This document shows positions 1 to 45,765 of a stretch of 64,000 nt of DNA, piece after piece. This stretch comes from Comamonadaceae bacterium. GTDB taxonomy: Bacteria; Pseudomonadota; Gammaproteobacteria; Burkholderiales; Burkholderiaceae_C. The notes under the pieces are model-generated. The model did no database searches and was not told the origin of the DNA. It saw nothing but the letters and a program-made list of their open reading frames with translations. Every line of letters starts with the position of its first letter. Positions within the stretch are counted from its first letter, which is position 1. A program made the position numbers and the translations under genes. The stretch is from assembly GCA_947447985.1 (NCBI GenBank), contig CANFLX010000001.1:1-64000 (forward strand). The letters run 5' to 3'.

Positions 1-1
1 A

Positions 2-1549
2 TCGGTGGCCCGCATCGTGTTCCAAAGCGGCGACGTCACCGAAGCGCTGCAGGTGCGCAAGGCGGGCGAGGGCGACCGCAAATCGGGCACCACGGTGCGC
101 GTCTGGCCGGATGCCAAATACTTTGAGTCGGCGGCCCTGCCCATGGCCGAGCTGGTGCACCTGCTGCGCAGCAAGGCGGTGCTGATGCCCGGCGTGAGCG
201 TCTCGCTGCTCAATGAAAAGACCAAAGACAGCCAAACCTGGCTCTACAAAGGCGGCCTGGCGGACTACCTGATGCAGTCCCTGCAAGCCGACCCGGTGAT
301 TCCGCTGTTCAGCGGCGAAGGCTTTGCCGATGCCCAGCACGACAGTTTTGCCGAAGGCGAGGGCGCCATGTGGTGCGTGGCCTTTACCGAAGACGGCAGT
401 CCGGTGCGTGAGAGCTATGTCAACCTGATTCCCACCAGCGCAGGCGGCACGCATGAGAGCGGTTTGCGCGATGGCTTGTTTACCGCGGTCAAAAGCTTTA
501 TTGACATGCACAGCCTGCTGCCCAAGGGCGTCAAGCTGATGCCCGAGGACGTGTTTGCCCGCGCCAGCTATGTGCTGTCGGCCAAAGTGCTTGATCCGCA
601 GTTTCAAGGCCAGATCAAAGAGCGCCTCAATTCGCGCGACGCCGTGCGCCTGGTCTCGGGCTTTGTGCGCCCGGCGCTGGAGCTGTGGCTCAACCAGCAT
701 GTGGACTACGGAAAAAAGCTGGCCGAGCTGGCCATCAAGGCGGCGCAAACCCGCCAGCGCGCCGGACAAAAAGTCGAGAAACGCAAGAGCTCGGGCGTGG
801 CGGTCTTGCCCGGCAAGCTGACCGACTGCGAAAGCCGCGACCTGGCCTACAACGAAGTGTTTCTGGTCGAGGGTGACTCGGCCGGTGGCAGCGCCAAGAT
901 GGGCCGCGACAAAGAAAACCAGGCCATCCTGCCCCTGCGCGGCAAGGTGCTCAACACCTGGGAAGTGGACCGTGACCGCTTGTTTGCCAACACCGAAATC
1001 CACGATATTTCGGTGGCCATCGGTGTCGACCCCCATGGCCCCAATGACACGCCTGACATGAGCGGTCTGCGCTACGGCAAGGTCTGCATTCTGAGCGACG
1101 CCGATGTGGACGGCTCGCACATCCAGGTGCTCTTGTTGACGCTGTTTTTCCGCCACTTTCCCAAGCTCATTGAAGCCGGTCATGTGTTTGTGGCGCGCCC
1201 TCCGCTGTTTCGGGTGGACGCTCCGGCACGTGGCAAAAAGCCCGCGTCCAAGGCCTATGCGCTGGACGAGGGCGAGCTCACCGCCATCCTGGACAAACTG
1301 CGCAAAGAAGGCGTGCGCGAAGGCGCCTGGAGCATCAGCCGCTTCAAGGGCCTGGGCGAGATGAACGCCGAGCAACTGTGGGACACCACGCTCAACCCCG
1401 ACACGCGCCGTTTGCTGCCTGTCGCATTGGGCGCAATCGACTTCGGCCAGACAGAGGCCTTGATCACCAAGCTCATGGGCAAAGGCGAGGCCGCCGCCCG
1501 CCGCGAGCTCATGGAAATCCACGGGGATTCGGTTGAAATTGACGTCTGA
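2..1549 (+). CDS. parE: DNA topoisomerase IV subunit B, 5'-truncated by window edge
   Basis: Open frame runs in from the window start; GyrB/ParE motifs (LIPTSAGGTHESGLRDGL, VEGDSAGGSAKMGRDKENQAILPLRGKVLN, SDADVDGSHI, RFKGLGEMNAEQLW); parC lies downstream. Confidence 0.93.
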   Translation, partial: SVARIVFQSGDVTEALQVRKAGEGDRKSGTTVRVWPDAKYFESAALPMAELVHLLRSKAVLMPGVSVSLLNEKTKDSQTWLYKGGLADYLMQSLQADPVIPLFSGEGFADAQHDSFAEGEGAMWCVAFTEDGSPVRESYVNLIPTSAGGTHESGLRDGLFTAVKSFIDMHSLLPKGVKLMPEDVFARASYVLSAKVLDPQFQGQIKERLNSRDAVRLVSGFVRPALELWLNQHVDYGKKLAELAIKAAQTRQRAGQKVEKRKSSGVAVLPGKLTDCESRDLAYNEVFLVEGDSAGGSAKMGRDKENQAILPLRGKVLNTWEVDRDRLFANTEIHDISVAIGVDPHGPNDTPDMSGLRYGKVCILSDADVDGSHIQVLLLTLFFRHFPKLIEAGHVFVARPPLFRVDAPARGKKPASKAYALDEGELTAILDKLRKEGVREGAWSISRFKGLGEMNAEQLWDTTLNPDTRRLLPVALGAIDFGQTEALITKLMGKGEAAARRELMEIHGDSVEIDV

Positions 1550-1567
1550 GTTTGAAACTCCATTGAA

Positions 1568-1588
1568 GTACACACATTTTGGATGTAC
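1568..1588. promoter_or_regulatory. Candidate VapBC operator (inverted repeat GTACA-N11-TGTAC)
   Basis: Inverted repeat in the short AT-richer gap between the parE stop and the vapB start. Confidence 0.35.
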
Positions 1589-1614
1589 ATTAAGATGATT
1601 CAGTCCCACGGAGA

Positions 1615-1878
1615 GTGATGATGGATACCACTGCCAAAGTGTTCACCAATGGCAACAGCCAGGCCGTGCGCCTGCCCAAGCTGTTTCGCCTCGATGCGTC
1701 GGAGGTGTGGATCCGCCGCGACGAAAGCACGGGCGAGCTCATTCTTCGCCCCAAACCCAGCGACGCCGAGCGCCAAGCGCAATTGCGTGAGCTGCTGGCC
1801 TTGGTGGACAGCAACACCGACCGCACTGAATTCCTGCCACCACGCGCGCCGGAGCTGCCGCGCAACCCCTTGGCCTGA
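1615..1878 (+). CDS. Antitoxin, VapB/VagC-like (AbrB/SpoVT fold)
   Basis: Small protein with TAKVFTNGNSQAVRLPKLFRL motif typical of VapB/VagC antitoxins; immediately upstream of a PIN-domain gene. Confidence 0.85.
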   Translation: MMMDTTAKVFTNGNSQAVRLPKLFRLDASEVWIRRDESTGELILRPKPSDAERQAQLRELLALVDSNTDRTEFLPPRAPELPRNPLA

Positions 1879-1894
1879 TTCAAAGCCATAGAAC

Positions 1895-2314
1895 ATGACA
1901 GCGCGTTACCTGGCCGACAGCAACATCCTGAGCGACTTCATTCGCGGCGGCTATGCGGACTTGCGGGCCCGCATGGCCGAAGAGTTGGCGCGCCAGACCG
2001 TGGTCACCTCCGCCATTTGCCGTGCCGAACTGCGCTTCGGTCAAAGCGCTCTGGACGCGCCTGACAAGCGCCGCCGCATGATCGACCTGTGCCTGCAGCA
2101 AGTGCCCGCCTTGCCCTGGACCGACGCGGTGGCCGATGCCTATGGCCCCTTGGCGCACAAACTGCGCCAGCTGGGGCGCCCGATTGGCGCGATGGACACC
2201 TTGATTGCCGCCCACGCCCTGGCCGAAGGCCTGGTGCTGGTCACCCACAACACCCGGCACTTTGACGGTGTCGAGGGCTTGCGTGTTGAAGACTGGGCGG
2301 CGACGCCTCCCTGA
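1895..2314 (+). CDS. vapC: PIN-domain toxin, VapC family ribonuclease
   Basis: YLADSNILSDFI N-terminus, conserved acidic residues (ICRAELRFG, GAMDTLIAAHAL, VTHNTRHFDGVEGL); paired with VapB-like gene. Confidence 0.88.
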   Translation: MTARYLADSNILSDFIRGGYADLRARMAEELARQTVVTSAICRAELRFGQSALDAPDKRRRMIDLCLQQVPALPWTDAVADAYGPLAHKLRQLGRPIGAMDTLIAAHALAEGLVLVTHNTRHFDGVEGLRVEDWAATPP

Positions 2315-2361
2315 GGCTCGCGCTTTCCGAATTTGTTTCGTTCCCCTTTGAACCCTACTGA

Positions 2362-4764
2362 ATGACCGACCAACCTATTCTCGACCTCGCGCCCGCATCT
2401 GAAGGCGACGACCAGCTCAACCTTGCCAACTATGCGCAGCGCGCTTATTTGGAATACGCCCTCAGCGTGGTCAAAGGCCGCGCCTTGCCCGATGTGTGCG
2501 ACGGCCAAAAGCCGGTGCAGCGCAGAATTTTGTACAGCATGTCGCGCATGGGCCTGGGCTTTGGCGGGGCCAATGGCAATACCGGCGCCAAGCCCGTCAA
2601 AAGCGCCCGCGTGGTGGGCGATGTGCTGGGCCGCTTCCATCCCCATGGCGACCAGGCGGCCTATGACGCCCTGGTGCGCATGGCCCAGGATTTTTCGCAG
2701 CGCTATCCGCTGATTGACGGGCAGGGCAATTTTGGTTCGCGTGACGGCGACGGCGCGGCCGCCATGCGGTACACCGAGGCGCGGCTGGCCAAAATCACCA
2801 GCCTCTTGCTCGACGAGATTGACCAGGGCACGGTGGACTTCCAGCCCAATTACGACGGCTCTACCGAAGAGCCGCGTCAGTTGCCAGCCCGTCTGCCGTT
2901 TTCCTTGCTCAATGGCGCCAGCGGCATTGCAGTGGGCTTGGCCACCGAGATTCCCAGCCACAACCTGCGCGAGATTGCCGACGCCTGTGTGGCGCTGGTC
3001 AAGTCCCCCAAGCTGTCGGACGCTGAGCTTTATGCCTTGGTACCAGGGCCGGACTACCCTGGGGGCGCACAAGTCATCAGCCCGGCATCAGACATTGCCG
3101 AGGCCTACCGCACGGGACGTGGCTCGCTAAAAGTGCGGGCGCGCTGGAAAATTGAAGATCTGGCGCGCGGCCAGTGGCAACTGGTGGTTACCGAGCTGCC
3201 GCCGGGTGTGAGCAGCCAGCGCGTGCTCGAAGAAATTGAAGAGCTGACCAACCCCAAGGTCAAGGCCGGCAAAAAAGCCCTGTCGCTGGACCAGACCCAG
3301 CTCAAGGCCAGCATGCTGGCGGTGCTGGACGTGGTGCGCGACGAATCGGGCAAAGAAAACGCGGTGCGTCTGGTGTTCGAGCCCAAGACCAGCCGCATTG
3401 AGCAACAAGAACTCATCACCGCGCTGCTGGCCCATACCAGCCTGGAAACCTCCAGCCCCATCAACCTGACCATGGTGGGCTTGGACGGGCGGCCCACCCA
3501 GAAGTCGTTCCGGCAAATGCTGACCGAGTGGATTGCGTTTCGCCAAAGCACGATTGAAAAGCGCTCGCGCCACCGCCTGGGCAAGGTGCTGGACCGCATC
3601 CATATTCTGGAGGGACGCCAGCTGGTGCTGCTCAATATCGACGAGGTGATTGCCATTATTCGCCAGTCGGACGAGCCCAAGTCTGCACTGATGGCGCGCT
3701 TCAACTTGAGCGAGCGCCAGGCCGAAGACATTTTGGAAATCCGCCTGCGCCAGTTGGCACGGCTGGAGGCGATCAAGATCGAGCAAGAGCTCTCGGAGCT
3801 GCGCAGCGAGCAGCAAAAACTCGAAGAAATTTTGGGCAATCCGTCGGCCCTGCGTCGTCTGATGGTCAAAGAGATCGAGGCCGACGCCAAGACCTTTGCC
3901 GACCCCCGCCGCACCCTGATTCAGGAAGAGAAAAAAGCGGTGGCCGAGGTCAAGATCATGGACGAACCGGTGACCGTGGTGGTCAGCGACAAAGGTTGGG
4001 TGCGTGCCCGCAGCGGCCACGGCCACGAGGCGGCCAGCTTTGCCTTCAAAGCGGGCGATGCGCTGTACGGCACCTTTGAGTGCCGCAGCGTGGACACCCT
4101 GTTGGCTTTTGGCTCAAACGGGCGCGTGTATTCGGTCGCTGTGTCTTTGCTGCCCGGCGGGCGGGGCGATGGCCAGCCGCTGACCAGCCTGATTGAGCTC
4201 GAATCCGGCACCCGGGTGCTGCACTACTTTGCCGGTGCGGGGAGCGCGCAATTGCTGCTCTCGGGCAGCGGCGGCTATGGCTTTATCGCCTCGGTGGAGC
4301 ACATGGTGTCGCGCCAAAAGGCGGGCAAGGCGTTTATCAGTTGCAATGACGGTGAAACCGTGTGTGCGCCATCTCTGGTGTCGGGGGCCAGTCTGCCCCA
4401 AGGGCCCGCTTCCGCACCAACGGTTGCCGCGCCCAATACCACGCGTGCGGCTGTGCTGCCGGCCACAGACGTGGCCTGTGCCTCCACGCTGGGGCGCATC
4501 TTGACCTTCAAGTTGTCCGAACTCAAAACCATGGAAAAAGGCGGTCGCGGCCTGATGCTGCTGGCGCTGGAAGACAAAGACACTTTGGCAGGTGCCGCAG
4601 CCTACACCCGCAGTGTGCGCATTGCAGGCCTGGGGCGGGGCGGCAAGCAGCGCGAAGAAACGCTGGAAATCCGCAGCCTCAACAATGCCCGTTCACCCCG
4701 GGCTCGCAAAGGAAAAGCCGCCGACCTCGGCTTCAAACCACAATCGGTAACGCGCGTCGAATAG
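2362..4764 (+). CDS. parC: DNA topoisomerase IV subunit A
   Basis: 800 aa; [38 protein letters not shown] and RYTEARL active-site region; partner parE upstream. Confidence 0.95.
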
Positions 4765-33367: not shown

Positions 33368-36109
33368 GTGGAAAACTACAAAACGCTCTCGCCCCAGCCA
33401 GGAATGGCGCGCAGCGCGTTGCCAGCAGCCAAGCTGAGCACTGCTGAATTGCTGCAACAGGCTCAAACGGCGCCGGATGGCGTCTGGGACGAATTGCGTG
33501 GGGGCGTTGACGGCAGCTTGCCCGCCCCGCACCCCGGCGTGGTGCCACTGAGCGCGCCCTGGGACGCGTTTTTGCAGCATCTCGGGCCGCAGGGGCTGGA
33601 GAGCCTCACCCCGCGCGTGGCCCAGTTGGAGCGCCAGGTGCGCGACAACGGCATCTCCTACAACGTCTATGCCGATGCCGACCGGCCGCAGCGCCCCTGG
33701 GCGCTAGACCTGCTGCCCCTGATGGTGGATGCGCTCAGCTGGCAGCAAATTGAATCGGGGGTGCTGCAGCGCATGCGCTTGCTCGAGCACATCATGGCCG
33801 ACACCTACGGCCCGCAGCGTTTGCTCAAGACCGGCATGCTGCCCACGGCACTGGTGCAAGGCCACCCCGGCTATTTGCACGCCATGCAGGGCGTGGCCCC
33901 AGTGGGCGGCCAGCACTTGGCCTTGGCGGCCTTTGACTTGGCACGGGGCCCGGACGGCTGTTGGTGGATGCTGTCGCAGCGCACCGAGGCGCCTTCCGGC
34001 CTGGGCTATTTGCTGGAAAACCGGCTGCTGATATCGCGCCAGTTTCCGCAGGCCTTTGAGGCCATGCCAGTACAGCGCCTGGCCAATGCCTATAGGGCGC
34101 TGGTCGATGGCATCAAGCAGCGCTCGCCCGCTGGCGCCGATGCCCACATCGCGCTGCTGACTCCAGGCCCCTACAACGAGACCTATTTTGAGCACGCCTA
34201 CCTGGCGCGCTACCTGGGCCTCACCTTGGTGCAAGGTGGTGACTTGCTGGTGCGCCACCAAAAGCTTTACCTCAAAACCCTGCAAGGGCTGCAGCGCGTG
34301 CACGGCCTGCTCAAGCGGGTGGACGATGCCTGGCTGGACCCGCTGGAGTTGCGTGCCGAATCCACCCTGGGCGTGCCCGGTTTGCTGCAGGTGGTGCGCG
34401 CGGGCAATGTGCTGGTGGCCAATGCGCCAGGCTCGGGCTTTTTGGAATCGAGCGCCTTGCTGGGCTTTATGCCGGCCTTGGCCAAATCGGTGTTGGGCGA
34501 AGAGCTGCGCCTGCCCGCCATTCCAAGCTGGTGGTGCGGTGAGCGCAGTGCCATGCAGCAGGTACTGCCGCGCATGGCCGATTGCGTGATCAAGCCGAGC
34601 TACCCCGCGTTTTCGAGCCGCCCGAGCTTTGAGCCAGTGCTGGGGCGCAACCTGTCGCAGCGGGAACGCGACGAGTGGTCGGGGCGCATTTTTCGGGACG
34701 GTGCAGCGCACACGCTGCAAGCCTTTTTGCCGATTTCGCACACTCCGGTCTGGCAGACCCACGCGGCGCAAGCCTCGATCGGCGCGCGCCCGGTGATTCT
34801 GCGGGTGTTTGCCCTGGCCAATACCCAAGGCGGCTGGGACGTGCTGCCCGGTGGCTTGGCGCGCTTGGGCACGCGCGAGGGCATTGCGTCCATGCAGCGT
34901 GGCGGCAGCAGCGCCGATGTGTGGGTGCTGACCGGGCGCTCTGGCACCGATGCCGAAGCCGCTGTGCCGCCCACGCAAAATCCATTGCAATCTCAGTTTC
35001 AGTCTCAGTCTCAGTCCCAGTCCCAGACTTCTTTGCCGCAGGCGCCAGACGCCTCCGTTGCGACCGGACTGCCCCCCTTGCCGGGCATGCCCTGGCTGAT
35101 GCCCGGCGTGGCAGGCACCGCCCAACGACAGCGCATCGTGACCAGCCGGGCCGCAGAAAACTTGTTTTGGATGGGCCGCTACACCGAGCGCAGCGAAAAC
35201 TTGTTGCGCCTCACACGCTTGTCGCTGGATGTGCTGGGCAGCGAAGACCAGACTTGTGCCCCCCTCATTGCCTGGCTCAACCAACTGGCCGTCACGCATG
35301 GCATGGTGGTGGCTGGCGTGCCTGCGGCACAGCAGTCGCGCCGCGTGTTTGAGCGCTCGCTGGTGGCAGGGCTGTGGGACACGCAACACACCACCGGCGT
35401 GGGCTTCAATCTCAAGGCCGTGTATTTGGCAGCCTCGTGCGTGCGGGAGCGGCTCTCACCTGAGCACTGGAGTTTGATCGAGCAGGCCCAAGCCACGCTG
35501 CTGCAGCCCGATGTCACCGACCGCCATGATCCGGTGCAAGCCCAGCGCGTGCTGGTGCGCACCAGCCAGCTGATGGCAGCGCTCACCGGTGCCCAAACCG
35601 ACCGCATGACGCGCGACGACGGATGGCGGCTGCTCTCGATTGGTCGCCACATTGAGCGGCTGGACTTCTTGGCCCATGCGCTGGCCAGCGCGGTCAGCGC
35701 AGGCGCATTGCAAGAGCAGGCGGGCTTTGATGCGGTGCTGGCACTCTTTGACAGCACCATCAGCTTTCATGCCCAGTACCAGCAGTCGCGCACCGTGGCC
35801 GCCTTGCTGGAGCTGGTGCTAACCAACGCGGACAACCCGCGCTCGCTCGCCTGGGTGGCCCACACCTTGCGCGCGCGCTTGGCGCGTATGGGCGGCCTCG
35901 CAGAAGGGGGAACCGAAGCGCTGGCCGCGAAAGTGCCGACATTGGCCAATGCCGATCTGCGCGCCCTGTGCCCGGACGGCATGCACACCACGCCTGAGCT
36001 GCTGGCCTTGCTGCAAGACTGCCGCAACACGGCGCGTGCGACCTCCGACAGCCTGAATACCTTGTTCTTTACTCATAGCGGTGAATCTTCTCAAAGCGTG
36101 GGGGCCTGA
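33368..36109 (+). CDS. Circularly permuted ATP-grasp protein fused to alpha-E domain
   Basis: N-part: LTPGPYNETYFEHAYLARYLGLTLVQGGDLLVRHQKLYLKTL, NAPGSGFLESSALLGFMP; C-part: SRAAENLFWMGRYTERSENLLRLTRL (alpha-E/DUF403); Q/S-rich linker between them. Confidence 0.88.
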   Translation: MENYKTLSPQPGMARSALPAAKLSTAELLQQAQTAPDGVWDELRGGVDGSLPAPHPGVVPLSAPWDAFLQHLGPQGLESLTPRVAQLERQVRDNGISYNVYADADRPQRPWALDLLPLMVDALSWQQIESGVLQRMRLLEHIMADTYGPQRLLKTGMLPTALVQGHPGYLHAMQGVAPVGGQHLALAAFDLARGPDGCWWMLSQRTEAPSGLGYLLENRLLISRQFPQAFEAMPVQRLANAYRALVDGIKQRSPAGADAHIALLTPGPYNETYFEHAYLARYLGLTLVQGGDLLVRHQKLYLKTLQGLQRVHGLLKRVDDAWLDPLELRAESTLGVPGLLQVVRAGNVLVANAPGSGFLESSALLGFMPALAKSVLGEELRLPAIPSWWCGERSAMQQVLPRMADCVIKPSYPAFSSRPSFEPVLGRNLSQRERDEWSGRIFRDGAAHTLQAFLPISHTPVWQTHAAQASIGARPVILRVFALANTQGGWDVLPGGLARLGTREGIASMQRGGSSADVWVLTGRSGTDAEAAVPPTQNPLQSQFQSQSQSQSQTSLPQAPDASVATGLPPLPGMPWLMPGVAGTAQRQRIVTSRAAENLFWMGRYTERSENLLRLTRLSLDVLGSEDQTCAPLIAWLNQLAVTHGMVVAGVPAAQQSRRVFERSLVAGLWDTQHTTGVGFNLKAVYLAASCVRERLSPEHWSLIEQAQATLLQPDVTDRHDPVQAQRVLVRTSQLMAALTGAQTDRMTRDDGWRLLSIGRHIERLDFLAHALASAVSAGALQEQAGFDAVLALFDSTISFHAQYQQSRTVAALLELVLTNADNPRSLAWVAHTLRARLARMGGLAEGGTEALAAKVPTLANADLRALCPDGMHTTPELLALLQDCRNTARATSDSLNTLFFTHSGESSQSVGA
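34994..35026 (+). repeat. Degenerate hexanucleotide tandem repeat (CAGTYY)5, encodes a Q/S-rich linker
   Basis: cagttt cagtct cagtct cagtcc cagtcc cag read directly. Confidence 0.85.
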
Positions 36110-37092
36110 TGCTGCTGCACATTACCCACGAAACGCTCTACGACTACGCACCCGGGGTCGATACGGCGCAGCACATGGCGCATTTGCAGCCACCGGACAC
36201 GCCGTACCAAAGCTGCCTCAGCCACCAGTTGGAGGTGGATCCGCCGTGTTCTGACCTGGACACCCAGCGGGATGCGTTTGGCAACTTTCGCAGCTATTGG
36301 TCCATGTCCAGCTTTCACCAGCAACTGCGCGTGCGGGCGCACAGTGTGCTTCGCACCCATAGCCCGCAAGGCGACCTGTTGGATGCCATGGCCTTGGAGG
36401 ACCTGGGTGGAGACGCTTCCTCAGCGCCGCAACTCGCACAGGCCCAGCGTGCGGGCAGGGCCTGGGAGGCAGCGCGTGATGCTTATCTCTATGCCTCGGG
36501 CCAAGCGGGCGATGCCGCCAGCGAGTTCAGCTATGCCTCGCACCATGCCCCCATTGCACAGGCCTTTGCCGCTTATGCGGCCTCGAGCTTTAGCGAGGGC
36601 AGGCCCTTGGCCGCAGCCGCCTGTGAGTTGATGGCGCGCATCCACAGCGATTTCACTTACGAGGCCTTGAGTACTGAAATCAGCACGCCCGCCCTGGAGG
36701 TGCTACAAGAGCGCCGGGGCGTCTGCCAGGACTTCGCCCATGTGCTGCTGGCCTGCCTGCGCTCGCTGGGTTTGGCCGCGCGCTACGTGAGTGGTTACCT
36801 GCTCACCGAGCCGCCGCCCGGCCAGCCCCGGCTGACGGGTGCGGATGCCTCGCATGCCTGGGTTTCGGTGTACCTGCCCGACTTGGGGGGCAGTCGCGGC
36901 TTGCCCCATGGCGGCTGGCTGGACCTGGATCCGACCAACAAGCGCGCAGGCCTGGGAACGCCTGGCCCGGACTATGTGCGTTTGGCGGTGGGACGGGACT
37001 TTGCCGATGTGTCGCCCTTGCGTGGGGTCTTGCAAGGCGGGGCGAACCACACCTTGACGGTGCGGGTGACGGTGGCGCCGGTGTCCGTCTGA
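36109..37092 (+). CDS. Transglutaminase family protein; 3' end partly duplicated downstream
   Basis: MLLHITHETLYDYAPGVDTAQHMAHLQPPDTPYQ; catalytic RRGVCQDFAHVLLACLRSLGLAARYVSGYL, DASHAWVSVYLP...GWLDLDPTNK. Confidence 0.88.
   Translation: MLLHITHETLYDYAPGVDTAQHMAHLQPPDTPYQSCLSHQLEVDPPCSDLDTQRDAFGNFRSYWSMSSFHQQLRVRAHSVLRTHSPQGDLLDAMALEDLGGDASSAPQLAQAQRAGRAWEAARDAYLYASGQAGDAASEFSYASHHAPIAQAFAAYAASSFSEGRPLAAAACELMARIHSDFTYEALSTEISTPALEVLQERRGVCQDFAHVLLACLRSLGLAARYVSGYLLTEPPPGQPRLTGADASHAWVSVYLPDLGGSRGLPHGGWLDLDPTNKRAGLGTPGPDYVRLAVGRDFADVSPLRGVLQGGANHTLTVRVTVAPVSV
36943..37083 (+). repeat. 141-bp direct repeat, copy 1 (3' end of transglutaminase gene)
   Basis: Base-for-base identical to 38208-38348 by direct reading; offset 1265 bp. 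Confidence 0.95.
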
Positions 37093-38123
37093 TGAATTTC
37101 TTTGCAATGTGCAACGGTATGTTCTCGGGGAGCAAAAACATACCGGCACGCAACAACTTCGACCTGGTCCGCTTTTGCTTGGCCATGGTGGTTTGTTGGG
37201 TCCACGCGAGCATCCTGTCTGGGCAGCCGGCGCTGGCCCCTATCCAGGATTTCTTGAGCTCGGAGATTGCCGTTCAAGGATTTTTCGCCGTCAGCGGGTT
37301 TCTGATTTTAATGAGCTACGAGCGCTCAAGCTCGATGAAGTCTTACGTCGAAAAGCGGGTGCGCCGTCTGGTGCCTGCCTACGTCACTGTCATTGTTTTG
37401 AGTGCTTTGCTGCTCAGTGCCTTTAGCAGTGCGCAAGACTTTTTCTTCACCCGCGAATGGTGGGCCTACCTGGCGGCCAATCTGAGCTACTTGAATTTTC
37501 TGCATCCGGAACTTCCGGGTCTGTTTCAAGGCAATGTGGTTCACGCGGTCAACGGTGCCCTTTGGACCTTGAAGGTGGAGATTGCGTTTTACCTCTCGGT
37601 ACCTGCATTGGTCTGGATCATCGGGCGGGTGGGGGCGGCGCCCGTGTTGCTCAGTACCTTTGTCCTGTCATCGATCTATGCAAGCTTCGTCGGTGGACCG
37701 CTTCAGCATCAATTGCCGGGCGAGTTGCGCTACTTCATGGCGGGGGCAGCCTGCTACTACGGGTGGCCTTATCTGCAAAACCGGTGGAAGCTCGTGGCCG
37801 CAATCTGCGTGGCGCTTTTTGTTATCGGAAAATTTATCCCGCTCGGATTCATCATGCCTGCGGTCGTCGGCACCTTGGTGATTTGTACAGGGTTCGCCCT
37901 CTACTTGGGAGACTTTGGCAAATATGGCGATTTCTCCTATGGCGTTTACATCTTGCATTTCCCCATCATCCAAACTTTGACCCAGACGGGCGTGTTCGAG
38001 CGCAGCCCGTGGGGCGGTCTGTTGCTTGCGGTTGCTCTGACGCTGGCTGGCGCTGTCATTTTGTGGAAACTCATTGAGAGCCGGTTCTTGCGCCGTCGCA
38101 ACAGTAATCTAGACATGGCATAG
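37092..38123 (+). CDS. Acyltransferase 3 family membrane protein (OafA-like O-acyltransferase)
   Basis: NNFDLVRFCLAMVVCWVHASIL, IAVQGFFAVSGFLI, VEKRVRRLVPAYVTV, VNGALWTLKVEIAFYLSVP; ~10 TM. Confidence 0.87.
   Translation: MNFFAMCNGMFSGSKNIPARNNFDLVRFCLAMVVCWVHASILSGQPALAPIQDFLSSEIAVQGFFAVSGFLILMSYERSSSMKSYVEKRVRRLVPAYVTVIVLSALLLSAFSSAQDFFFTREWWAYLAANLSYLNFLHPELPGLFQGNVVHAVNGALWTLKVEIAFYLSVPALVWIIGRVGAAPVLLSTFVLSSIYASFVGGPLQHQLPGELRYFMAGAACYYGWPYLQNRWKLVAAICVALFVIGKFIPLGFIMPAVVGTLVICTGFALYLGDFGKYGDFSYGVYILHFPIIQTLTQTGVFERSPWGGLLLAVALTLAGAVILWKLIESRFLRRRNSNLDMA
37115..37145. other. 9-bp perfect inverted repeat CGGTATGTT-N13-AACATACCG
   Basis: Read directly; about 30 bp inside the left boundary of the inserted segment. 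Confidence 0.65.
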
Positions 38124-38152
38124 ACCTAGCGCGGCCGCAAATGTTCCGTGGC

Positions 38153-38171
38153 CACACCGATGAGCGGTGTG
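38153..38171. other. Hairpin CACACCG-ATGAG-CGGTGTG
   Basis: 7-bp perfect arms, 5-nt loop. Confidence 0.75.
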
Positions 38172-38179
38172 CTCGGGGC

Positions 38180-38200
38180 AACCCGACCTGCAGTCGGGTT
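38180..38200. other. Hairpin AACCCGAC-CTGCA-GTCGGGTT
   Basis: 8-bp perfect arms, 5-nt loop; 8 nt after the preceding hairpin and 7 nt before the direct repeat. Confidence 0.8.
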
Positions 38201-38207
38201 ATGTGCC

Positions 38208-38348
38208 CGCGCAGGCCTGGGAACGCCTGGCCCGGACTATGTGCGTTTGGCGGTGGGACGGGACTTTGCCGATGTGTCGCCCTTGCGTGGGGTCTTGCAA
38301 GGCGGGGCGAACCACACCTTGACGGTGCGGGTGACGGTGGCGCCGGTG
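38208..38348 (+). repeat. 141-bp direct repeat, copy 2
   Basis: Identical to 36943-37083. Confidence 0.95.
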
Positions 38349-38357
38349 GCGCAGTAG
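38208..38357 (+). pseudogene. 3' fragment of the transglutaminase gene (probably the original native end, ...VTVAPVAQ*)
   Basis: Encodes AGLGTPGPDYVRLAVGRDFADVSPLRGVLQGGANHTLTVRVTVAPVAQ*, matching the C-terminus of 36109-37092 except for the last residues. Confidence 0.85.
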
Positions 38358-38395
38358 GCCCCGAGAACCCCTTCTGCTACAGTGGTCTTTTAGGC

Positions 38396-38413
38396 AGCCT
38401 CGGCAACGAGGCT
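38396..38413. other. Hairpin AGCCTCG-GCAA-CGAGGCT (GNRA-type tetraloop) upstream of sensor kinase gene
   Basis: 7-bp perfect stem with GCAA loop. Confidence 0.6.
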
Positions 38414-38465
38414 TTGCGCTCGGACCGCGTATTGGCGCTTGGGCGGGCCTTTTGGGATCACCTTT

Positions 38466-40487
38466 ATGCGTTTTGTCATCCGGCCCAACCAGGCAGTCAG
38501 CGTCTTTGCAGCGCTCACCATTGTGGCGGTACTGGCCACCACGGCCTTGCTGTTGTGGAGCCTGCGTGCCGGAGAGTTGCGCCATTCCCGGCTTGAGACC
38601 ATCAGCCTCACCGAAATGCTGATGGAGCAAACCCACAAGCAACTGGATACGGTTGACCAGGTGATGATCGATGTACAGGAGCGGCTGGCATCCAACTACG
38701 GCAGCCAATTGGCGCTCGATAGCGAGTTGACCCGGCTCCTGTTGGCCACGCGGGTTGCCGGACACCCCCAAATCCATTCGCTGTTTTTACTGGACGCACA
38801 CGGTCAGGTGGTCAATGCATCCAAGACGCCGGACGCCGACACAAGCCACGCGCCTCTGGCTGCCTACTTCACCGCGTTTGGCGTGGGGCGAACCAAGGGC
38901 GTTGCGCTGGATCGACCCAGCCGCCACCCTGGCGATGGCCGCTGGACGGTGCGAATGTCGCGCGCCCTGGAGGCGGCCGATGGCCAGTTCCGCGGTGTCA
39001 TGGTGGCCGAGGTCGATTTGGCAGATGTGGAGGCGTCCTTCGTCCGCGCCCGGCTCGACTTTGTGCGGCCGATCACGATGTACCTGGAAGACGGGACCCT
39101 GCTCGCCAGTTGGCCCCACCGCGAAAACGACCTGGGCGCCAAGGCCATGGAGTTGAACCAGCAGCATGTCCCCACCAGCGCAGACGGAGTGCATACGCTG
39201 GTGCATGCAGGTGGTGACGGTGCGCGCGCCGTGTTTGCCTTGGGGCACTTGCAAGAGTTTCCTATCCTGCTTGCCGTGAGTGACGACGAGGAGCAAAGCC
39301 TGGCCTCGTGGCGCGAGGTGGCCATTCCCATTCTTATTGCCGTGGTGTTGCTGTGTGTGTTTACCCTGTTCGTGGCCTATTTTTTGAGCCAAAAGTTGCT
39401 GCGCGAGGCCGCCTTGGCCACGGCATTGACGGATGCGGACAACCTCTATGTGCATACGGTGGAGTCGGTTAAAGATGCGATCGTGGCGGTGGATGAAGCC
39501 TTGAACATTCGCCTCTTCAATCCGGCAGCAGAAGCCATGTTTGGATTTAGCCAAGCGCAGGCGCTGGGCCAACCGCTGTCCCTGTTGCTGCCGTCGCAAG
39601 CGCGCCCGCACCACGACCAATTGGCTACGGCGTTTGGCAAAACACAGGACAGCCCGCGCGCGATGGCCGGGCAGCTGGAGATCTTCGGCCAGAGGCGTGA
39701 CGGCACCGAGTTTCCGATCGAATCGTCCATCTCTAAAACAGAAATTGGCGGCAAGCTGCAAATGACCGCTGTGCTGCGCGACGTGACCGAGCAGCGCCGC
39801 GCCAAGTTAGAGCTGCAAACCATCAACTCCCAGCTGCGCGCTTTGTATGTCGACCAACAAACGGTGCGCGAGGACGAACGCACCCGCATATCGCGCGAGT
39901 TGCACGACGACCTGGGCCAGCAGCTCACCGGCTTGAAGCTCAATTTGCTGTGGCTGGTGGGGCGGATGAAAGAAGGGCGTGGCGTGGACCAGGAGCACTT
40001 GGATGGCATGCGCCAAACGCTCAACGGCGCCATCAGTTCGGTGCGACGCATCAGCTCTGAACTGCGCCCAGCCATCCTGGACGAGCTGGGTTTTGCGGAT
40101 GCGGTGGCCTGGCAAACCCGCGAACTCGCCAAGCACAGTGGCTTGCAAGTCGACCTCAGCCTCGGCAGCCCGAATCTGGTACAGGGCGAGGTGTTGTCGA
40201 CCGCCTTGTTTCGCATCGTGCAAGAGTCGCTGACCAATGTGGTTCGTCATGCCCAGGCCACAGCGGTCCAGGTCTCGCTAGAGCAGGTTCCCCATCGATT
40301 GGTACTGCGCATCGTGGACAACGGCATCGGTGTGCCGGACACGCCGAACCTGGGTGGTATTGGCATGGTCAGCATGCGCGAGCGTGCCCGCGCCGTCGGT
40401 GCCAATTTGCGCGTTTTTCGCCACGACGGCGGTGGCACGACGGTGGAAGTCACCATGGACCTGGCGCAACAGGAGGCGCACGCATGA
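38466..40487 (+). CDS. Membrane sensor histidine kinase (periplasmic sensor between two TMs, PAS, HisKA_3, HATPase)
   Basis: ALTIVAVLATTALLLWSL and VAIPILIAVVLLCVFTLFVAYFL TMs; EDERTRISRELHDDLGQQLTGLKLNLLWL; VDNGIGVPDTPNLGGIGMVSMRERA. Confidence 0.92.
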   Translation: MRFVIRPNQAVSVFAALTIVAVLATTALLLWSLRAGELRHSRLETISLTEMLMEQTHKQLDTVDQVMIDVQERLASNYGSQLALDSELTRLLLATRVAGHPQIHSLFLLDAHGQVVNASKTPDADTSHAPLAAYFTAFGVGRTKGVALDRPSRHPGDGRWTVRMSRALEAADGQFRGVMVAEVDLADVEASFVRARLDFVRPITMYLEDGTLLASWPHRENDLGAKAMELNQQHVPTSADGVHTLVHAGGDGARAVFALGHLQEFPILLAVSDDEEQSLASWREVAIPILIAVVLLCVFTLFVAYFLSQKLLREAALATALTDADNLYVHTVESVKDAIVAVDEALNIRLFNPAAEAMFGFSQAQALGQPLSLLLPSQARPHHDQLATAFGKTQDSPRAMAGQLEIFGQRRDGTEFPIESSISKTEIGGKLQMTAVLRDVTEQRRAKLELQTINSQLRALYVDQQTVREDERTRISRELHDDLGQQLTGLKLNLLWLVGRMKEGRGVDQEHLDGMRQTLNGAISSVRRISSELRPAILDELGFADAVAWQTRELAKHSGLQVDLSLGSPNLVQGEVLSTALFRIVQESLTNVVRHAQATAVQVSLEQVPHRLVLRIVDNGIGVPDTPNLGGIGMVSMRERARAVGANLRVFRHDGGGTTVEVTMDLAQQEAHA

Positions 40488-41155
40488 ACACCCCCAAATG
40501 GCAAGTGCTGATTGCCGATGACCATGCCATCATTCGCAACGGTTTAAAAAACATTCTGGCCGATACGCCTGATTTCGAAGTCGCTGGCGAGGCTGGTAAC
40601 GGCAATGCGGTGCTGGACTTGGTGCGCCAGCGTGACTGGTCGCTGGTGGTGCTCGATATTTCGATGCCAGGGCGCAATGGCTTGGAGTTGATCAAGCTGA
40701 TCCAGGCCGAGCGGCCGCGCTTGCCGGTACTGATCTTCAGCATGCACCACGAGGAGCAATACGCGGTGCGCGCCATCCGGGCCGGGGCGCGGGGCTATTT
40801 GTCCAAGGAGGGGGACATGGATTTGCTGTTGCCGGCCATGCGTCGTCTGGCGCAGGGCGGCCGGTACATCAGCCCCAAAGTGGCTGAGCTGTTGGCGATG
40901 GACGTATCACCGGTGGGCCACGACCTGCCGCACACGGCGCTCAGCAACCGGGAGTTTGAGGTGTTCAGCCGCATTGTGCGCGGCGTCAGCATGACAGCCA
41001 TCGCCGATGAACTGTCGCTGAGCATCAAGACCGTCAGCACCCACAAAACCAACATCCTGCACAAAATGGGCATGGCGGGACAGGTGGAGCTGGTGCGCTA
41101 TGCCTTAGAGCATCACCTGCTGGACGATACGCCCACCCATCCGCCTCAGGCCTGA
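40484..41155 (+). CDS. NarL/FixJ-type response regulator (REC + LuxR HTH)
   Basis: VLIADDHAIIRNGLKNIL, VVLDISMPGRNGLELI, LSNREFEVFSRIVRGVSMTAIADELSLSIKTVSTHKTNILHKMG; ATGA overlap with the kinase gene. Confidence 0.94.
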   Translation: MNTPKWQVLIADDHAIIRNGLKNILADTPDFEVAGEAGNGNAVLDLVRQRDWSLVVLDISMPGRNGLELIKLIQAERPRLPVLIFSMHHEEQYAVRAIRAGARGYLSKEGDMDLLLPAMRRLAQGGRYISPKVAELLAMDVSPVGHDLPHTALSNREFEVFSRIVRGVSMTAIADELSLSIKTVSTHKTNILHKMGMAGQVELVRYALEHHLLDDTPTHPPQA

Positions 41156-41191
41156 GCCGCCGCGTCGCGCTCCCACCTTCATTGCAGGATC

Positions 41192-41211
41192 GCCTAGGAA
41201 TTTTCCGAGGC
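41192..41211. promoter_or_regulatory. Candidate response-regulator operator, imperfect palindrome GCCTAGGAA-TT-TTCCGAGGC
   Basis: 9-bp arms with one mismatch, located in the gap between the regulator and the cytochrome operon. Confidence 0.45.
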
Positions 41212-41252
41212 CTGCTTTCATCGCTGTCCGATGGTATTGGGCGGCCACCTTG

Positions 41253-41258
41253 TTGACA
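41253..41258 (+). promoter_or_regulatory. Candidate -35 box TTGACA upstream of cytochrome operon
   Basis: Exact TTGACA 69 bp upstream of the start codon; no strong -10 was seen at 16-18 bp, so an activator-dependent promoter is possible. Confidence 0.3.
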
Positions 41259-41326
41259 CTTGGTTCCAGTCTTAGGCAGGCATGCGTCTGTCAAAGCCGA
41301 ATCCAACTTTTGACAAGGTGAACACC

Positions 41327-41686
41327 ATGGCACAACGAAATTCTTATCGTTTCACGACACTCGCAGCGGGCGCTGCACTGTGTTTCGCAGCGTTTTCGGC
41401 CCACGCGGAAGTGGACGTGGAAGCGGCCAAGGCCCTGGCCCGACAGAACAACTGCCTGAAATGCCACGCCATTGACAAAGACAAAGACGGCCCCTCGTAC
41501 AAGAGCGTGGCTGAAAAATTCAAGGGCAAGGCGGGTGCTGAAGCCCGCTTGATCGAGCACATCATGTCCGGTGAAAAAGCCAAGTTCCCTGACGGACACG
41601 AAGAAGAGCACAAGATCGTCAAGACGTCTCCGCCCAAAGACATGGCCCAGATCAAGAACCTGGTGCAGTGGATCTTGTCGCAGTAA
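41327..41686 (+). CDS. Monoheme class I-like c-type cytochrome (MtoD-like position)
   Basis: Signal peptide MAQRNSYRFTTLAAGAALCFAAFSAHA; single CLKCH. Confidence 0.85.
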   Translation: MAQRNSYRFTTLAAGAALCFAAFSAHAEVDVEAAKALARQNNCLKCHAIDKDKDGPSYKSVAEKFKGKAGAEARLIEHIMSGEKAKFPDGHEEEHKIVKTSPPKDMAQIKNLVQWILSQ

Positions 41687-41725
41687 TTACCCACCCCGAA
41701 GCACTACCTTTTGCTGGGAATCGTC

Positions 41726-42733
41726 ATGAAAAACATCTCCAAACTGCTCGCTGCCTGCGCCATGTTGGCAGGCCTGTTCGCTGCACCCGCCTGGGCGCAG
41801 GTCAACAACTTGCCCGAACTCGCGGCGGGCGCCACCAAATCTGCCCTGGCGCAAGAAGCTTTGAAAAAAGACGCGGTGTGCACCAAGTGCCATGACGAGA
41901 GCGAAAACGCGCCCATCCTCAGTCTGTACCAGACCAAACACGGGGTGCGCGGTGACTCCCGCACACCGACATGCCAGTCCTGCCATGGCTCCAGCGCAGA
42001 CCACTTGAAGGGCGACACTGGCGGCAAAGGCCGCCCCGCACCCGACCATGTGTTCAAAAAAGGGGTGTATTCAGCCTCTGCTGACAAAGAGCGCGCCGAC
42101 CAGTGCCTGAGTTGCCACAAGGGCGGCAAGCGCAACAACTGGGACGGCGGACAACACCAAAACGCCGGAGTGGCATGCAACGACTGCCACGTGGTGCACC
42201 GTCCTAAAGACAAACTGCAAGACAAGAAAACCCAATCTGAAGTCTGCTACAGCTGCCACAAAGACCAGCGCGCCGACGGCAAAAAACTCTCGCACCATCC
42301 TGTGGCTGAAGGCAAAGTCGCCTGCGCCGACTGCCACAACCCGCACGGCTCTACGGGCCCCAAGATGCTGAAGAAAAACACCGTGACCGAGACCTGCTAC
42401 CAATGCCATGCAGAAAAACGCGGCCCCTTCCTGTTTGAGCACCAACCGGTGAGCGAAGACTGCGCCAATTGCCATACGCCCCATGGTTCGAACATCACAC
42501 CTTTGCTGAAATCGCGTCCCCCCTTCCTGTGCCAGGAGTGCCATGACGGCACCCATGCCAGCGGCACTCCTGCCGGTCCCAACGCCGCAGGACGCCAAGG
42601 CGGGCTCTCAACGGTCGGTCCCTCAGGCGCCGCGCTGTACCCCAGCAAGAACCTGGTGGGCAACGCATGCATGAACTGCCATCGGCAGGTTCACGGAACC
42701 AACAGCCCAGCGGGCGGTTACCTCCAACGCTAA
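41726..42733 (+). CDS. Periplasmic decaheme c-type cytochrome, MtrA/MtoA/PioA/DmsE family
   Basis: Signal peptide MKNISKLLAACAMLAGLFAAPAWA; ten CXXCH motifs: CTKCH, CQSCH, CLSCH, CNDCH, CYSCH, CADCH, CYQCH, CANCH, CQECH, CMNCH; ~335 aa. Confidence 0.93.
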   Translation: MKNISKLLAACAMLAGLFAAPAWAQVNNLPELAAGATKSALAQEALKKDAVCTKCHDESENAPILSLYQTKHGVRGDSRTPTCQSCHGSSADHLKGDTGGKGRPAPDHVFKKGVYSASADKERADQCLSCHKGGKRNNWDGGQHQNAGVACNDCHVVHRPKDKLQDKKTQSEVCYSCHKDQRADGKKLSHHPVAEGKVACADCHNPHGSTGPKMLKKNTVTETCYQCHAEKRGPFLFEHQPVSEDCANCHTPHGSNITPLLKSRPPFLCQECHDGTHASGTPAGPNAAGRQGGLSTVGPSGAALYPSKNLVGNACMNCHRQVHGTNSPAGGYLQR

Positions 42734-42749
42734 TTCAAGGGGATTCATC

Positions 42750-45077
42750 ATGAAATCTAACCAGGAACTTTTTACCCGCAGTCGCGTGGCTGCGGCCGCA
42801 TTGGCAGTCTGTTTGGCGCCCGCCATGGCGTTTGCGCAAGAAGAGGGCGCCGAGGAATTGACCCGCGCCCACAGCATGGTTGAAATCGGTATTCAAGCCC
42901 CATCGGTGGCTACGGCCAAATTTGGCGAATACAACGGTTTGAACAAGGCCGAAGGCGGTATCGTGCTCAATGCCAACATCCGTGGCGGTGACGCTTACGG
43001 GGCGGGCACGGGTACCCAGCGCTGGGAAATCAAGGCGAGCGAACTGGGCACGACCTCACGCGAATTGGGCGCTAATTACAGCGACCAAGGCCAATGGAAT
43101 ATAGGTGCCAATTTCGACGCGCTTACGCACAGGCTCTCGGACAGCTACCAAACACCCTACAGCGGCGCAGCGGGATCGAATAGCTTTACCTTGCCAGGTT
43201 TTGGTTTGGTACCGAACACCACCACGCTTAGCGCTCCACAGCTTGGGGCGTATCACAATGTCAACATTGACTCGACGCGTGAAAATACCTCGGTCAATGC
43301 GGGCCTGGAAATCAACGCACGCCTCGGCCTGAAGTTTGACTACAACCATCTCGAGCAAACCGGCTCTAAACTGATGGCCTTCGGCTCAGCAGGTTTTGCC
43401 GCTTCCGGCACGGCGCCCGCGGGTGAAGCGGTCTCGATACTGCCCAATCCCACCCAGTACCAGACGGACACCATCAACCTGGCGCTCAACTGGACAGGCG
43501 ACAACGCGAACCTGACCGCTGCCTACTTCGGCTCCATCTTCCGGGATGGCTTTGACCGGGTGAATTTCACCACCTATGCCACGGCCAATAACCTGCAGAC
43601 CATGAGCACCGCGCCGGGCAATGACTTTCACCAACTCAGTCTCAGCGGCGGCTACGGACTCACACCGACGACAAAACTGACCGGCTCGGTGTCCACGGCC
43701 CGAAATACGCAGAACGACGCCTTTGTCGTCGATTCATTCATGTACGTCAACACCGGAGTCGCGCCAGGCAATGCCAATACATCGCTGGGCGGTGTTGTGG
43801 TGACACAGCACGCCGACCTGAAACTGACGGACCAAACCACGCATGATTTGACCTTGTCGGCCAGTTACAAGTACGACTTGCGCGATAACCAGACGGCCTC
43901 GGCGATTTACAACTTCCAGGCGATTGGTACTGGCAATATCGCCTATTACCCTAACACCCCCCTGAGCTTTAAGAAGAACCAGGCTGAATTGGCAGGCGAC
44001 TACCGCATTGACAAGACACAGCGGGTTCGCTTGGCCTATAACCGCGAAGATGTGTCGCGCTGGTGTGACCAGTACGCGGTGGGCGGTAGCAATTACCCCG
44101 CGGGCACCAACTGTGTGGTGGCGGTGTCGAGCAACGATGACAAACTCACCGCCACCTACCGCGCCATGGCCACCGAAGAACTGGCTACCAACCTGGCTTA
44201 TTCCTACAGCAAACGGTCTACCAACTCGGACCCCAACGCCATTGTTTCCATGATCGGTGTGCGCGGCGGCGACACCGGCAGTACGGTGGGGACGATCAAG
44301 GGGCTCAATGGGGGCGACTACATCGGGTTCTACCCATTCTTCGACGCGTCCCGTACACAGCAAATGACCAAGGCGGGCATCAATTGGCAAGCCAATGAGG
44401 CATTGACAGTGGGCATTAGCGCCCGCTACACCGATGACCGCTATGACTCGAACTATGGCGTGCAATGGGGCAACGGTCGTGGCTTGAACCTGGATGCGAC
44501 CTATGCCTACAGCGAAAACAGTTCGGTCTCGGCCTATGTGACACAACAGTCCAACGAGCGCCAGCTGACTGATCAGCAGCGCTCGCTCGCACAGGGCGCT
44601 GGTGCGGCGTCTGCCACCGCCATTGCCATTCCAGCGGGCGCAACCTGGACCAACAACCTCAAAACAGAAGACCTGACCGTCGGCATCAGCTCTAAAAAAG
44701 GCGGTTTGCTGGGCGGTCAATTGGAATTGGTTGGAGACCTGAGCTATTCGCTCGGCCGGTCGAACTACGGCACCTTTCTGAACTACAGCACCGCGACCAC
44801 TGGTGGCGTGGTGTGCAGTGACCCGCGGATTCTGTCCTGCGGCACCTTGCCGGAAATCAAGGCCGAGGTCATCAGCTTCAAGCTTACCGGCAACTACCGG
44901 GTGGACAAAGCCAGCAAGGTGGCCGTGGCCTATCTGTTCCAAAAACTGGCCAGCGACGACTACTACTACAACGGCTTGCAATATGGAACGAATCCGAGCT
45001 CCATGTTGGCGACCAACCAGACCGCGCCCAACTATTCGCTCAACGTGGTCACCCTGACCTATATCTACAACTTCTAG
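42750..45077 (+). CDS. MtrB/PioB-family decaheme-associated outer membrane beta-barrel protein
   Basis: Signal peptide, 775 aa with alternating aromatic beta-strand pattern, C-terminal ...LTYIYNF* (terminal Phe), directly downstream of the decaheme gene. Confidence 0.9.
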   Translation: MKSNQELFTRSRVAAAALAVCLAPAMAFAQEEGAEELTRAHSMVEIGIQAPSVATAKFGEYNGLNKAEGGIVLNANIRGGDAYGAGTGTQRWEIKASELGTTSRELGANYSDQGQWNIGANFDALTHRLSDSYQTPYSGAAGSNSFTLPGFGLVPNTTTLSAPQLGAYHNVNIDSTRENTSVNAGLEINARLGLKFDYNHLEQTGSKLMAFGSAGFAASGTAPAGEAVSILPNPTQYQTDTINLALNWTGDNANLTAAYFGSIFRDGFDRVNFTTYATANNLQTMSTAPGNDFHQLSLSGGYGLTPTTKLTGSVSTARNTQNDAFVVDSFMYVNTGVAPGNANTSLGGVVVTQHADLKLTDQTTHDLTLSASYKYDLRDNQTASAIYNFQAIGTGNIAYYPNTPLSFKKNQAELAGDYRIDKTQRVRLAYNREDVSRWCDQYAVGGSNYPAGTNCVVAVSSNDDKLTATYRAMATEELATNLAYSYSKRSTNSDPNAIVSMIGVRGGDTGSTVGTIKGLNGGDYIGFYPFFDASRTQQMTKAGINWQANEALTVGISARYTDDRYDSNYGVQWGNGRGLNLDATYAYSENSSVSAYVTQQSNERQLTDQQRSLAQGAGAASATAIAIPAGATWTNNLKTEDLTVGISSKKGGLLGGQLELVGDLSYSLGRSNYGTFLNYSTATTGGVVCSDPRILSCGTLPEIKAEVISFKLTGNYRVDKASKVAVAYLFQKLASDDYYYNGLQYGTNPSSMLATNQTAPNYSLNVVTLTYIYNF

Positions 45078-45118
45078 GGCACTGGCCAGGAGCACCCACC
45101 CTCAGTCATTAAAAAGGA

Positions 45119-45138
45119 CGGGACCGCGATCAGTCCCG
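45119..45138. other. Hairpin CGGGAC-N8-GTCCCG between barrel and tetraheme genes
   Basis: 6-bp perfect stem in the intergenic gap. Confidence 0.45.
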
Positions 45139-45171
45139 AACCTCTTGGATCAACAGCAAGGAGCCAGACCA

Positions 45172-45765
45172 ATGGACAGCAACCCCGGTGCCCTCAAGCG
45201 CTTTTGGACTTTTATCAAAAAACCCAGCGCCAAATATTCGCTGCTGGCGATTTCCAGCCTGTCCTTTGTGGTGGGAATTTTGTTCTGGGGCGGCTTCAAC
45301 ACCGGGATGGAAATGACCAACACCCTGGAGTTCTGCACCACATGCCATGAAATGCGGGACAACGTGTACCAGGAATACAAAGAGACGATCCATTATTCCA
45401 ACCGGACCGGCGTGCGGGCTATTTGCTCGGACTGCCATGTGCCCAAGGAATGGACGCATAAAATGATCCGCAAGGCGAAGGCCAGCTTTGAGGTGTGGGG
45501 TAAGCTCACCGGTTATATCGATACCAAGGAAAAATTCGAGGAAAAACGCATGGAACTTGCGACCCACGAGTGGGCCCGCATGAAAGAGACCAATTCCCGC
45601 GAATGCCGCAACTGCCACGCTTTCGAGGCCATGAGCCCCGAGTTGCAAAAGCAGACGCCCTATAAAAAGCACATGAAGGCCAAGGAAGAAGGCAAAACCT
45701 GTATTGACTGCCACAAAGGCATTGCCCACCACCTGCCCAAAGAGTACGTAGACCCCGACGAATAA
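45172..45765 (+). CDS. NapC/NirT-family tetraheme cytochrome c (CymA-like quinol dehydrogenase)
   Basis: One N-terminal TM anchor (LLAISSLSFVVGILFWGGF), four CXXCH: CTTCHEM, CSDCH, CRNCH, CIDCH; start set at MDSNPGALK. Confidence 0.92.
   Translation: MDSNPGALKRFWTFIKKPSAKYSLLAISSLSFVVGILFWGGFNTGMEMTNTLEFCTTCHEMRDNVYQEYKETIHYSNRTGVRAICSDCHVPKEWTHKMIRKAKASFEVWGKLTGYIDTKEKFEEKRMELATHEWARMKETNSRECRNCHAFEAMSPELQKQTPYKKHMKAKEEGKTCIDCHKGIAHHLPKEYVDPDE

Follow-up and report, generated by a model that had tools for sequence, protein, structure and literature searches.

The genome of a Comamonadaceae bacterium contains an acyltransferase gene bracketed by two copies of the 3′ end of its upstream neighbour, a transglutaminase-like gene, raising the questions of how a single gene came to be placed at this site and whether it moves as a unit. 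The locus was analyzed within a window of 64,000 nucleotides (contig CANFLX010000001.1, positions 1 to 64,000), with further comparisons against the remainder of the genome, related genomes, phages, viral contigs and plasmids. The features of the locus are listed in Table 1.

Table 1. Features of the acyltransferase locus (positions within the window)
Feature	Positions	Strand	Description
Transglutaminase-like protein	36109..37092	+	327 aa through copy 1, tail APVSV-stop; Bact_transglu_N, Transglut_core
Direct repeat copy 1	36943..37083	+	141 bp; 3′ end of the transglutaminase gene
Tract shared with CANBQX010000076.1 (G112)	36994..38512		99.74% identical inside 94-95% identical flanks
Foreign segment between the copies	37084..38207	+	1,124 bp, GC 55.5%; missing in empty-site relatives; single copy in the genome
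Acyltransferase-3 (AT3) membrane O-acyltransferase	37119..38123	+	334 aa; Acyl_transf_3, E = 6.5e-27; start from homologs
Non-coding 3′ end of the foreign segment	38124..38207	+	Two hairpins, fold z = -3.85, inverted repeats; no T-run
Direct repeat copy 2	38208..38348	+	Joined to ancestral downstream DNA; native tail APVAQ-stop
PAS/HisKA_3 histidine kinase	38469..40487	+	Ancestral right neighbour (Pfam); directly after the transglutaminase gene in 8 relatives

A perfect repeat and the question of misassembly

The two copies of the repeat are identical at 141 of 141 positions, and their starts lie 1,265 bp apart. The bases flanking the copies differ at both edges, copy 1 lying between AAG and TCC and copy 2 between TGCC and GCG. 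At the left junction, GCGCCGGTG at the end of copy 1 is followed by TCCGTCTGATG of the insert, and at the right junction GTTATGTGCC of the insert is followed by CGCGCAGGCC of copy 2. Copy 1 closes the transglutaminase reading frame with the residues APVSV, while copy 2 would close the same frame with APVAQ. The sharply bounded identity, the two tails and the lower GC content of the acyltransferase insert (55.5% versus 62.5% for the window) had all been described in the initial annotation and were confirmed. A scan of 2.37 Mb of the 2.85-Mb genome (83%) identified this pair as the longest exact direct repeat within 20 kb, the runner-up being 78 bp, and no similar repeats were found in this portion of the genome. 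No other direct repeat of at least 30 bp was present in the 64-kb window, and no further copy of the insert was found in the genome. Tandem repeats of 294 bp, perhaps belonging to a repeat-protein gene, were noted where one contig begins (G000:C24, positions 1-3200; L109).

A length of 141 is also the largest k used by a common assembler, MEGAHIT. As the repeat length equals this value, independent support for the structure was sought. The window genome is a draft of 86 contigs, and an artefact, or a mixture of strains, could have caused two contigs to be misjoined over a 141-bp overlap. The contig ends of this assembly, however, overlap by 66-75 and 147 bp and not by 141 bp. Furthermore, the same structure was detected, collinear and gap-free, in contig CANBQX010000076.1 of a separately named genome that is ∼94% identical (Comamonadaceae bacterium JR-DAM-100519-1, termed G112). 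The junctions in this second assembly are the same within flanks of 94-95% identity, but the two repeat copies are not identical, with 3 mismatches over the 141 sites, each within the first 51 bp. This contig was represented more than once among the sequences compared (L049 is apparently the same as L112/L141, with the same start and a length of 8,935 bp each) and was counted once. A k-mer artefact, one form of the assembly artefact that the initial annotation had named as a possible refutation, was rejected on the basis of the second assembly and the end overlaps, and a misjoin is considered highly improbable. These observations support the proposal that positions 36943 to 38348 contain a genuine, recent insertion of foreign DNA that restored the host reading frame.

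The foreign segment and its single gene

The acyltransferase gene was the only open reading frame in the 1,124-bp segment. The product scored 94.9 bits against the Acyl_transf_3 profile, relative to a curated cut-off of 31, and the alignment covered profile positions 2 to 325 of 326, indicative of a full-length domain. Matches in the PHROG collection were to an O-acetyltransferase and an O-antigen acetylase. By homology, the enzyme probably O-acylates a surface polysaccharide in the manner of phage-borne O-antigen acetylases.

Two ATG codons could serve as the start of this gene. The first, at 37092, would give a protein of 343 aa and overlaps the TGA of the transglutaminase gene (37090-37094), an arrangement that had been read as translational coupling. 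The second, at 37119, has the support of homologs, with MFSGSKNIPARNNFDL aligning without gaps to MNSNSMQIPAHNNFDL of a 72% identical homolog. Because the N-termini of homologs point to this ATG, 27 bp downstream, as the native start, the overlap is probably fortuitous and coupling is doubtful. The ATG at 37119 is preceded by 35 bp of foreign leader. No promoter-like site was seen for the acyltransferase gene, so transcription from upstream is likely. Neither a terminator-like nor a promoter-like site was called in the non-coding 3′ end of the segment. The end of the insert, from 38118 to 38215, folds unusually well (z = -3.85), and in the outer stem it pairs with the beginning of copy 2.

In searches of ∼1,000 genomes from the genus, family and order, a close copy of the acyltransferase was detected only in G112, all others being at most 51% identical. 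The best other homolog, 72% identical in amino acids, was found on a 4.3-kb IMG/VR contig (IMGVR_UViG_3300038405_000349, positions 1-4337). On this contig, termed L159, the acyltransferase gene adjoins terminase and portal genes and a transposase, which reads as IS30-like. By eye, the end of L159 resembles a truncated selC-like tRNA, but no tRNA was called by ARAGORN on this truncated end. The edge of a prophage is the usual place of lysogenic-conversion genes, and the position of the 72% homolog suggests that it is probably such a gene, near a prophage edge. More-distant homologs are carried by named phages, including oac of Sf6 (∼29% identical). Two small plasmids, NZ_CP092402.1 (7.9 kb, Klebsiella) and NC_011316.1 (4.3 kb, Aliivibrio), also contain distant homologs (35-40%), and very small plasmids are possibly another vehicle for this family. 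Sequence comparison marks the acyltransferase segment of the window as foreign to the host lineage.

An empty site and a variable junction in relatives

Matches to the transglutaminase were detected in 51 of 61 genomes searched. In eight genomes of the genus (G010, G023, G027, G096, G105, G114, G117 and G123) the site is empty, the transglutaminase gene being separated from the histidine kinase gene by about 85-170 bp. The occurrence of such an empty site in related strains had been proposed as a check on the insertion. As the transglutaminase gene directly precedes the kinase gene in these relatives, the ancestral DNA is that upstream of copy 1 and that downstream of copy 2, confirming the initial assignment of copy 2 as the native end. 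In addition, the stretch ENPFCYSGLL downstream of copy 2 is conserved in one of the empty-site relatives (G023, locus L003). Both neighbours of the insert are intact, with a complete transglutaminase reading frame and a kinase gene that retains 141 bp of native upstream DNA. The insertion altered the last two residues of the transglutaminase from AQ to SV. This change is probably neutral, since the C-terminal tails of relatives vary and include ADA, VAE, AVE, VLD, VVD and others.

Other genes occupy this junction elsewhere in the genus. In the two next-closest relatives, G094 (L131, contig G094:C475) and G097 (L132, contig G097:C158), a xanthine/uracil permease gene of ∼1.7 kb is present on the opposite strand, and no flanking repeats were found around it in either genome. 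In the window, positions 38469-45762 encode the histidine kinase and a response regulator, cytochromes c, an MtrB/PioB-type porin and a NapC/NirT cytochrome, and lie between the transglutaminase gene and the ABC-transporter gene at 45777. This whole block is missing at this place in five genomes (G034, G110, G111, G119 and G122), in which the transglutaminase gene directly adjoins an ABC-transporter (ccm-type) operon. The acyltransferase gene was present at the junction in two genomes, that of the window and G112. Taken together, these comparisons suggest a variable and recurrent insertion spot at the transglutaminase 3′ junction in the genus, where an acyltransferase, a permease and a cytochrome/MtrB block appear to have been placed.

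Exchange of the finished block between two species

The distribution of differences between the window and G112 was informative as to how the second genome obtained this structure. Only 4 mismatches were detected in the 1,519 sites of the shared tract, while divergence was 5.0% in the left flank (36752-36993) and 5.9% in the right flank (38513-45686), and a further 20 kb of G112 context was 92-96% identical. The fewest mismatches in any 1,406-bp window of the right flank was 32, compared with 3 in the core. The recombination switch points were located to 36994-37083 on the left and 38400-38513 on the right. The left switch was placed inside copy 1, as the three differences between the repeat copies of G112 are all in the first 51 bp. 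One condition put forward for refuting a recent origin was the finding of relatives with the same arrangement but diverged repeats. In form, G112 matches this description, but its differences mark a recombination boundary and not age.

A tract with 4 differences in 1,519 sites within flanks diverged by ∼6% indicates that the block was shared after the lineages split. Vertical inheritance from a common ancestor with G112 was rejected, core divergence being 0.2% versus ∼6%. On this sequence evidence, the finished block was exchanged recently between the two species by ordinary homologous recombination. Linear homologous replacement of 36994 to 38400-38512 is the favoured explanation for spread to G112, because re-integration of a bare circle would have left native downstream DNA with an expected divergence of ∼6%. 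Between repeat position 51 and 38512, a stretch of 255 bp, there was 1 mismatch against ∼15 expected for native DNA, and no 255-bp window of the flanks had fewer than 2. Although overlapping windows and uneven rates limit this test, it speaks against a bare circle having re-integrated in G112. Copy 2 of G112 matches the window sequence, which suggests that transfer may have been from the window lineage to G112. The alleles of outgroups at the three differing repeat sites were uninformative on polarity and direction, these sites being variable.

These results bear on whether the 1,265-bp unit could be a minimal mobile cassette without a recombinase of its own. Such a cassette would leave as a circle, through recombination between its host-gene repeats, and enter the same gene end again and again in other strains and species. 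The initial annotation had spoken of a recombination-ready cassette left by the insertion. The only spread observed, to G112, fits linear homologous replacement better, and movement of such a cassette as a circle is very unlikely.

Origin of the insertion

How the block first arose is a separate question. We lean towards an insertion-duplication through a single crossover, by which one accessory gene was recently gained horizontally. The donor would have been of the same or a near species, with a transglutaminase gene already followed by the acyltransferase gene. A linear fragment of ∼1.27 kb, in which the terminal 141 bp of the transglutaminase gene were joined to the acyltransferase gene, would have been circularized by ligation of its ends, and the circle would then have entered the 3′ end of the transglutaminase gene by a RecA-type single crossover, duplicating the 141 bp. 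Neither an integrase nor a transposase would be required for this founding insertion, and later recombination between the repeats would recreate the exact empty site. There is an experimental precedent for these steps in lacZ of Escherichia coli, where incoming linear molecules homologous to the target at one end were in most cases ligated and then inserted by a RecA-dependent single crossover (PMC3240628). The target duplications in 14 sequenced clones ranged from 109 to 950 bp (PMC3240628).

Several features of the locus are consistent with this model: a foreign segment lies between direct copies of the target in an otherwise intact locus, the 141-bp repeats are exact, the insert is of lower GC content and single copy, and the site is empty in eight relatives. 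The initial annotation had proposed a Campbell-type crossover, and the duplication is of a size left by single-crossover integration, but the origin of a circle joining the host's own gene end to a foreign gene was left unexplained. A donor in which the transglutaminase gene is directly followed by the acyltransferase gene, without the second repeat, was not found among 103 genomes of the genus; hence, the fragment is hypothetical and we infer the founding step. Perfect identity of the repeats fits any duplicating mechanism equally, and the prophage-like contig of the nearest homolog fits an origin from integrase attachment sites too.

This latter origin is the main rival to a single crossover. 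The repeats would be attL and attR at the transglutaminase 3′ end of a prophage or integrative element that had brought a replacement gene end and then shrunk, with everything deleted except a conversion gene at its edge, or of a minimal element acted on by an integrase in trans. The 72% homolog lies between terminase and portal genes and the contig end with the selC-like tRNA seen by eye, the distant homologs in named phages such as Sf6 point in the same direction, and six matches to tyrosine recombinases were detected in the genome. Islands at gene ends also commonly restore the target reading frame (PMC8409611). Against this origin, neither an integrase nor an excisionase nor any other phage gene was found between the repeats (1,124 bp, searched by open reading frames and Pfam), and no integrase was located downstream of the transglutaminase gene in the relatives inspected. 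No attP-like copy of the gene end, or fragment resembling the 141 bp, was detected in the phages or viral contigs searched, and the failure of ARAGORN to call a tRNA on L159 weakens the tRNA assignment. Plasmid matches to the gene end were to distant transglutaminase-type genes on very large replicons. Finally, the repeat is fully identical to the species' own gene, whereas sister species are ∼84-85% identical in this region, which would be unusual for a phage-carried attP. An attachment-site origin is judged unlikely.

A third possibility is capture during break repair or replication, in which the gene end was duplicated by a staggered break, or by two switches of template 141 bp apart, and a foreign acyltransferase fragment was trapped between the copies without any pre-joined molecule. 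Capture of this kind would account for the repeat being exactly the species' own sequence, and illegitimate recombination is regarded as one of the main origins of small variable segments (PMC2884548). A weak lead in the same direction is the location of the copy 2 junction at the foot of the hairpin that pairs the insert end with the start of copy 2, but this hairpin could belong merely to the 3′ end of the acquired gene. Two illegitimate junctions would also be required, and we regard this mechanism as improbable to a similar degree. Single-crossover insertion-duplication was retained as the preferred reading.

Comparison with known systems

The hallmarks of transposons and insertion sequences were absent from the segment, which has no transposase reading frame and no inverted repeats at its ends and is associated with a duplication of 141 bp rather than a short one. 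At the right end, inspection by eye showed GTTATGTGCC instead of the GTTRRRY of an integron attC site. Gene-end and intragenic islands and phages, such as those in trmE, dusA, yicC and sbcB, resemble the locus in restoring the reading frame and in having direct repeats at their edges. Unlike the locus, these elements carry an integrase and short repeats, the repeats of dusA islands being 21 bp and imperfect (PMC8409611) and the attP sequence of Sf101 being 13 bp (PMC4159516), while the repeat described here is 141 bp of own-species sequence. Cis-mobilizable elements, which have only att sites, similarly consist of repeat-bracketed cargo with no recombination gene, but no related integrase element was found at this site, so that att status of its repeats is unsupported. 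The AT3 O-antigen acetylases of serotype-converting phages, Oac of Sf6 and OacB of Sf101, belong to the same family as the acyltransferase described here, which differs in having no adjacent phage genes and is ∼29% identical to Sf6 Oac.

No directly comparable natural example of this architecture was found in the literature. The locus reveals no new type of mobile system and is an ordinary, known kind of gene acquisition, apparently element-free. It does provide an unusually clear snapshot of a single gene apparently entering a genome without a mobile element, with the empty site, the filled site, an exact duplication and a mapped exchange between species all available for comparison. A close parallel is the single-crossover insertion-duplication observed in E. 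coli next to homology-facilitated illegitimate recombination (PMC3240628), in which foreign DNA likewise came to lie between direct duplications of the target gene. The range of those duplications (109-950 bp) spans the 141 bp of the locus, and no mobile-element gene is needed in either case. Unlike the E. coli experiments, the event described here was natural, occurred in an environmental bacterium and kept the target reading frame, and its donor fragment is hypothetical. This parallel suggests that single-crossover insertions that duplicate a short part of the target, known as a laboratory by-product, arise in nature as well.
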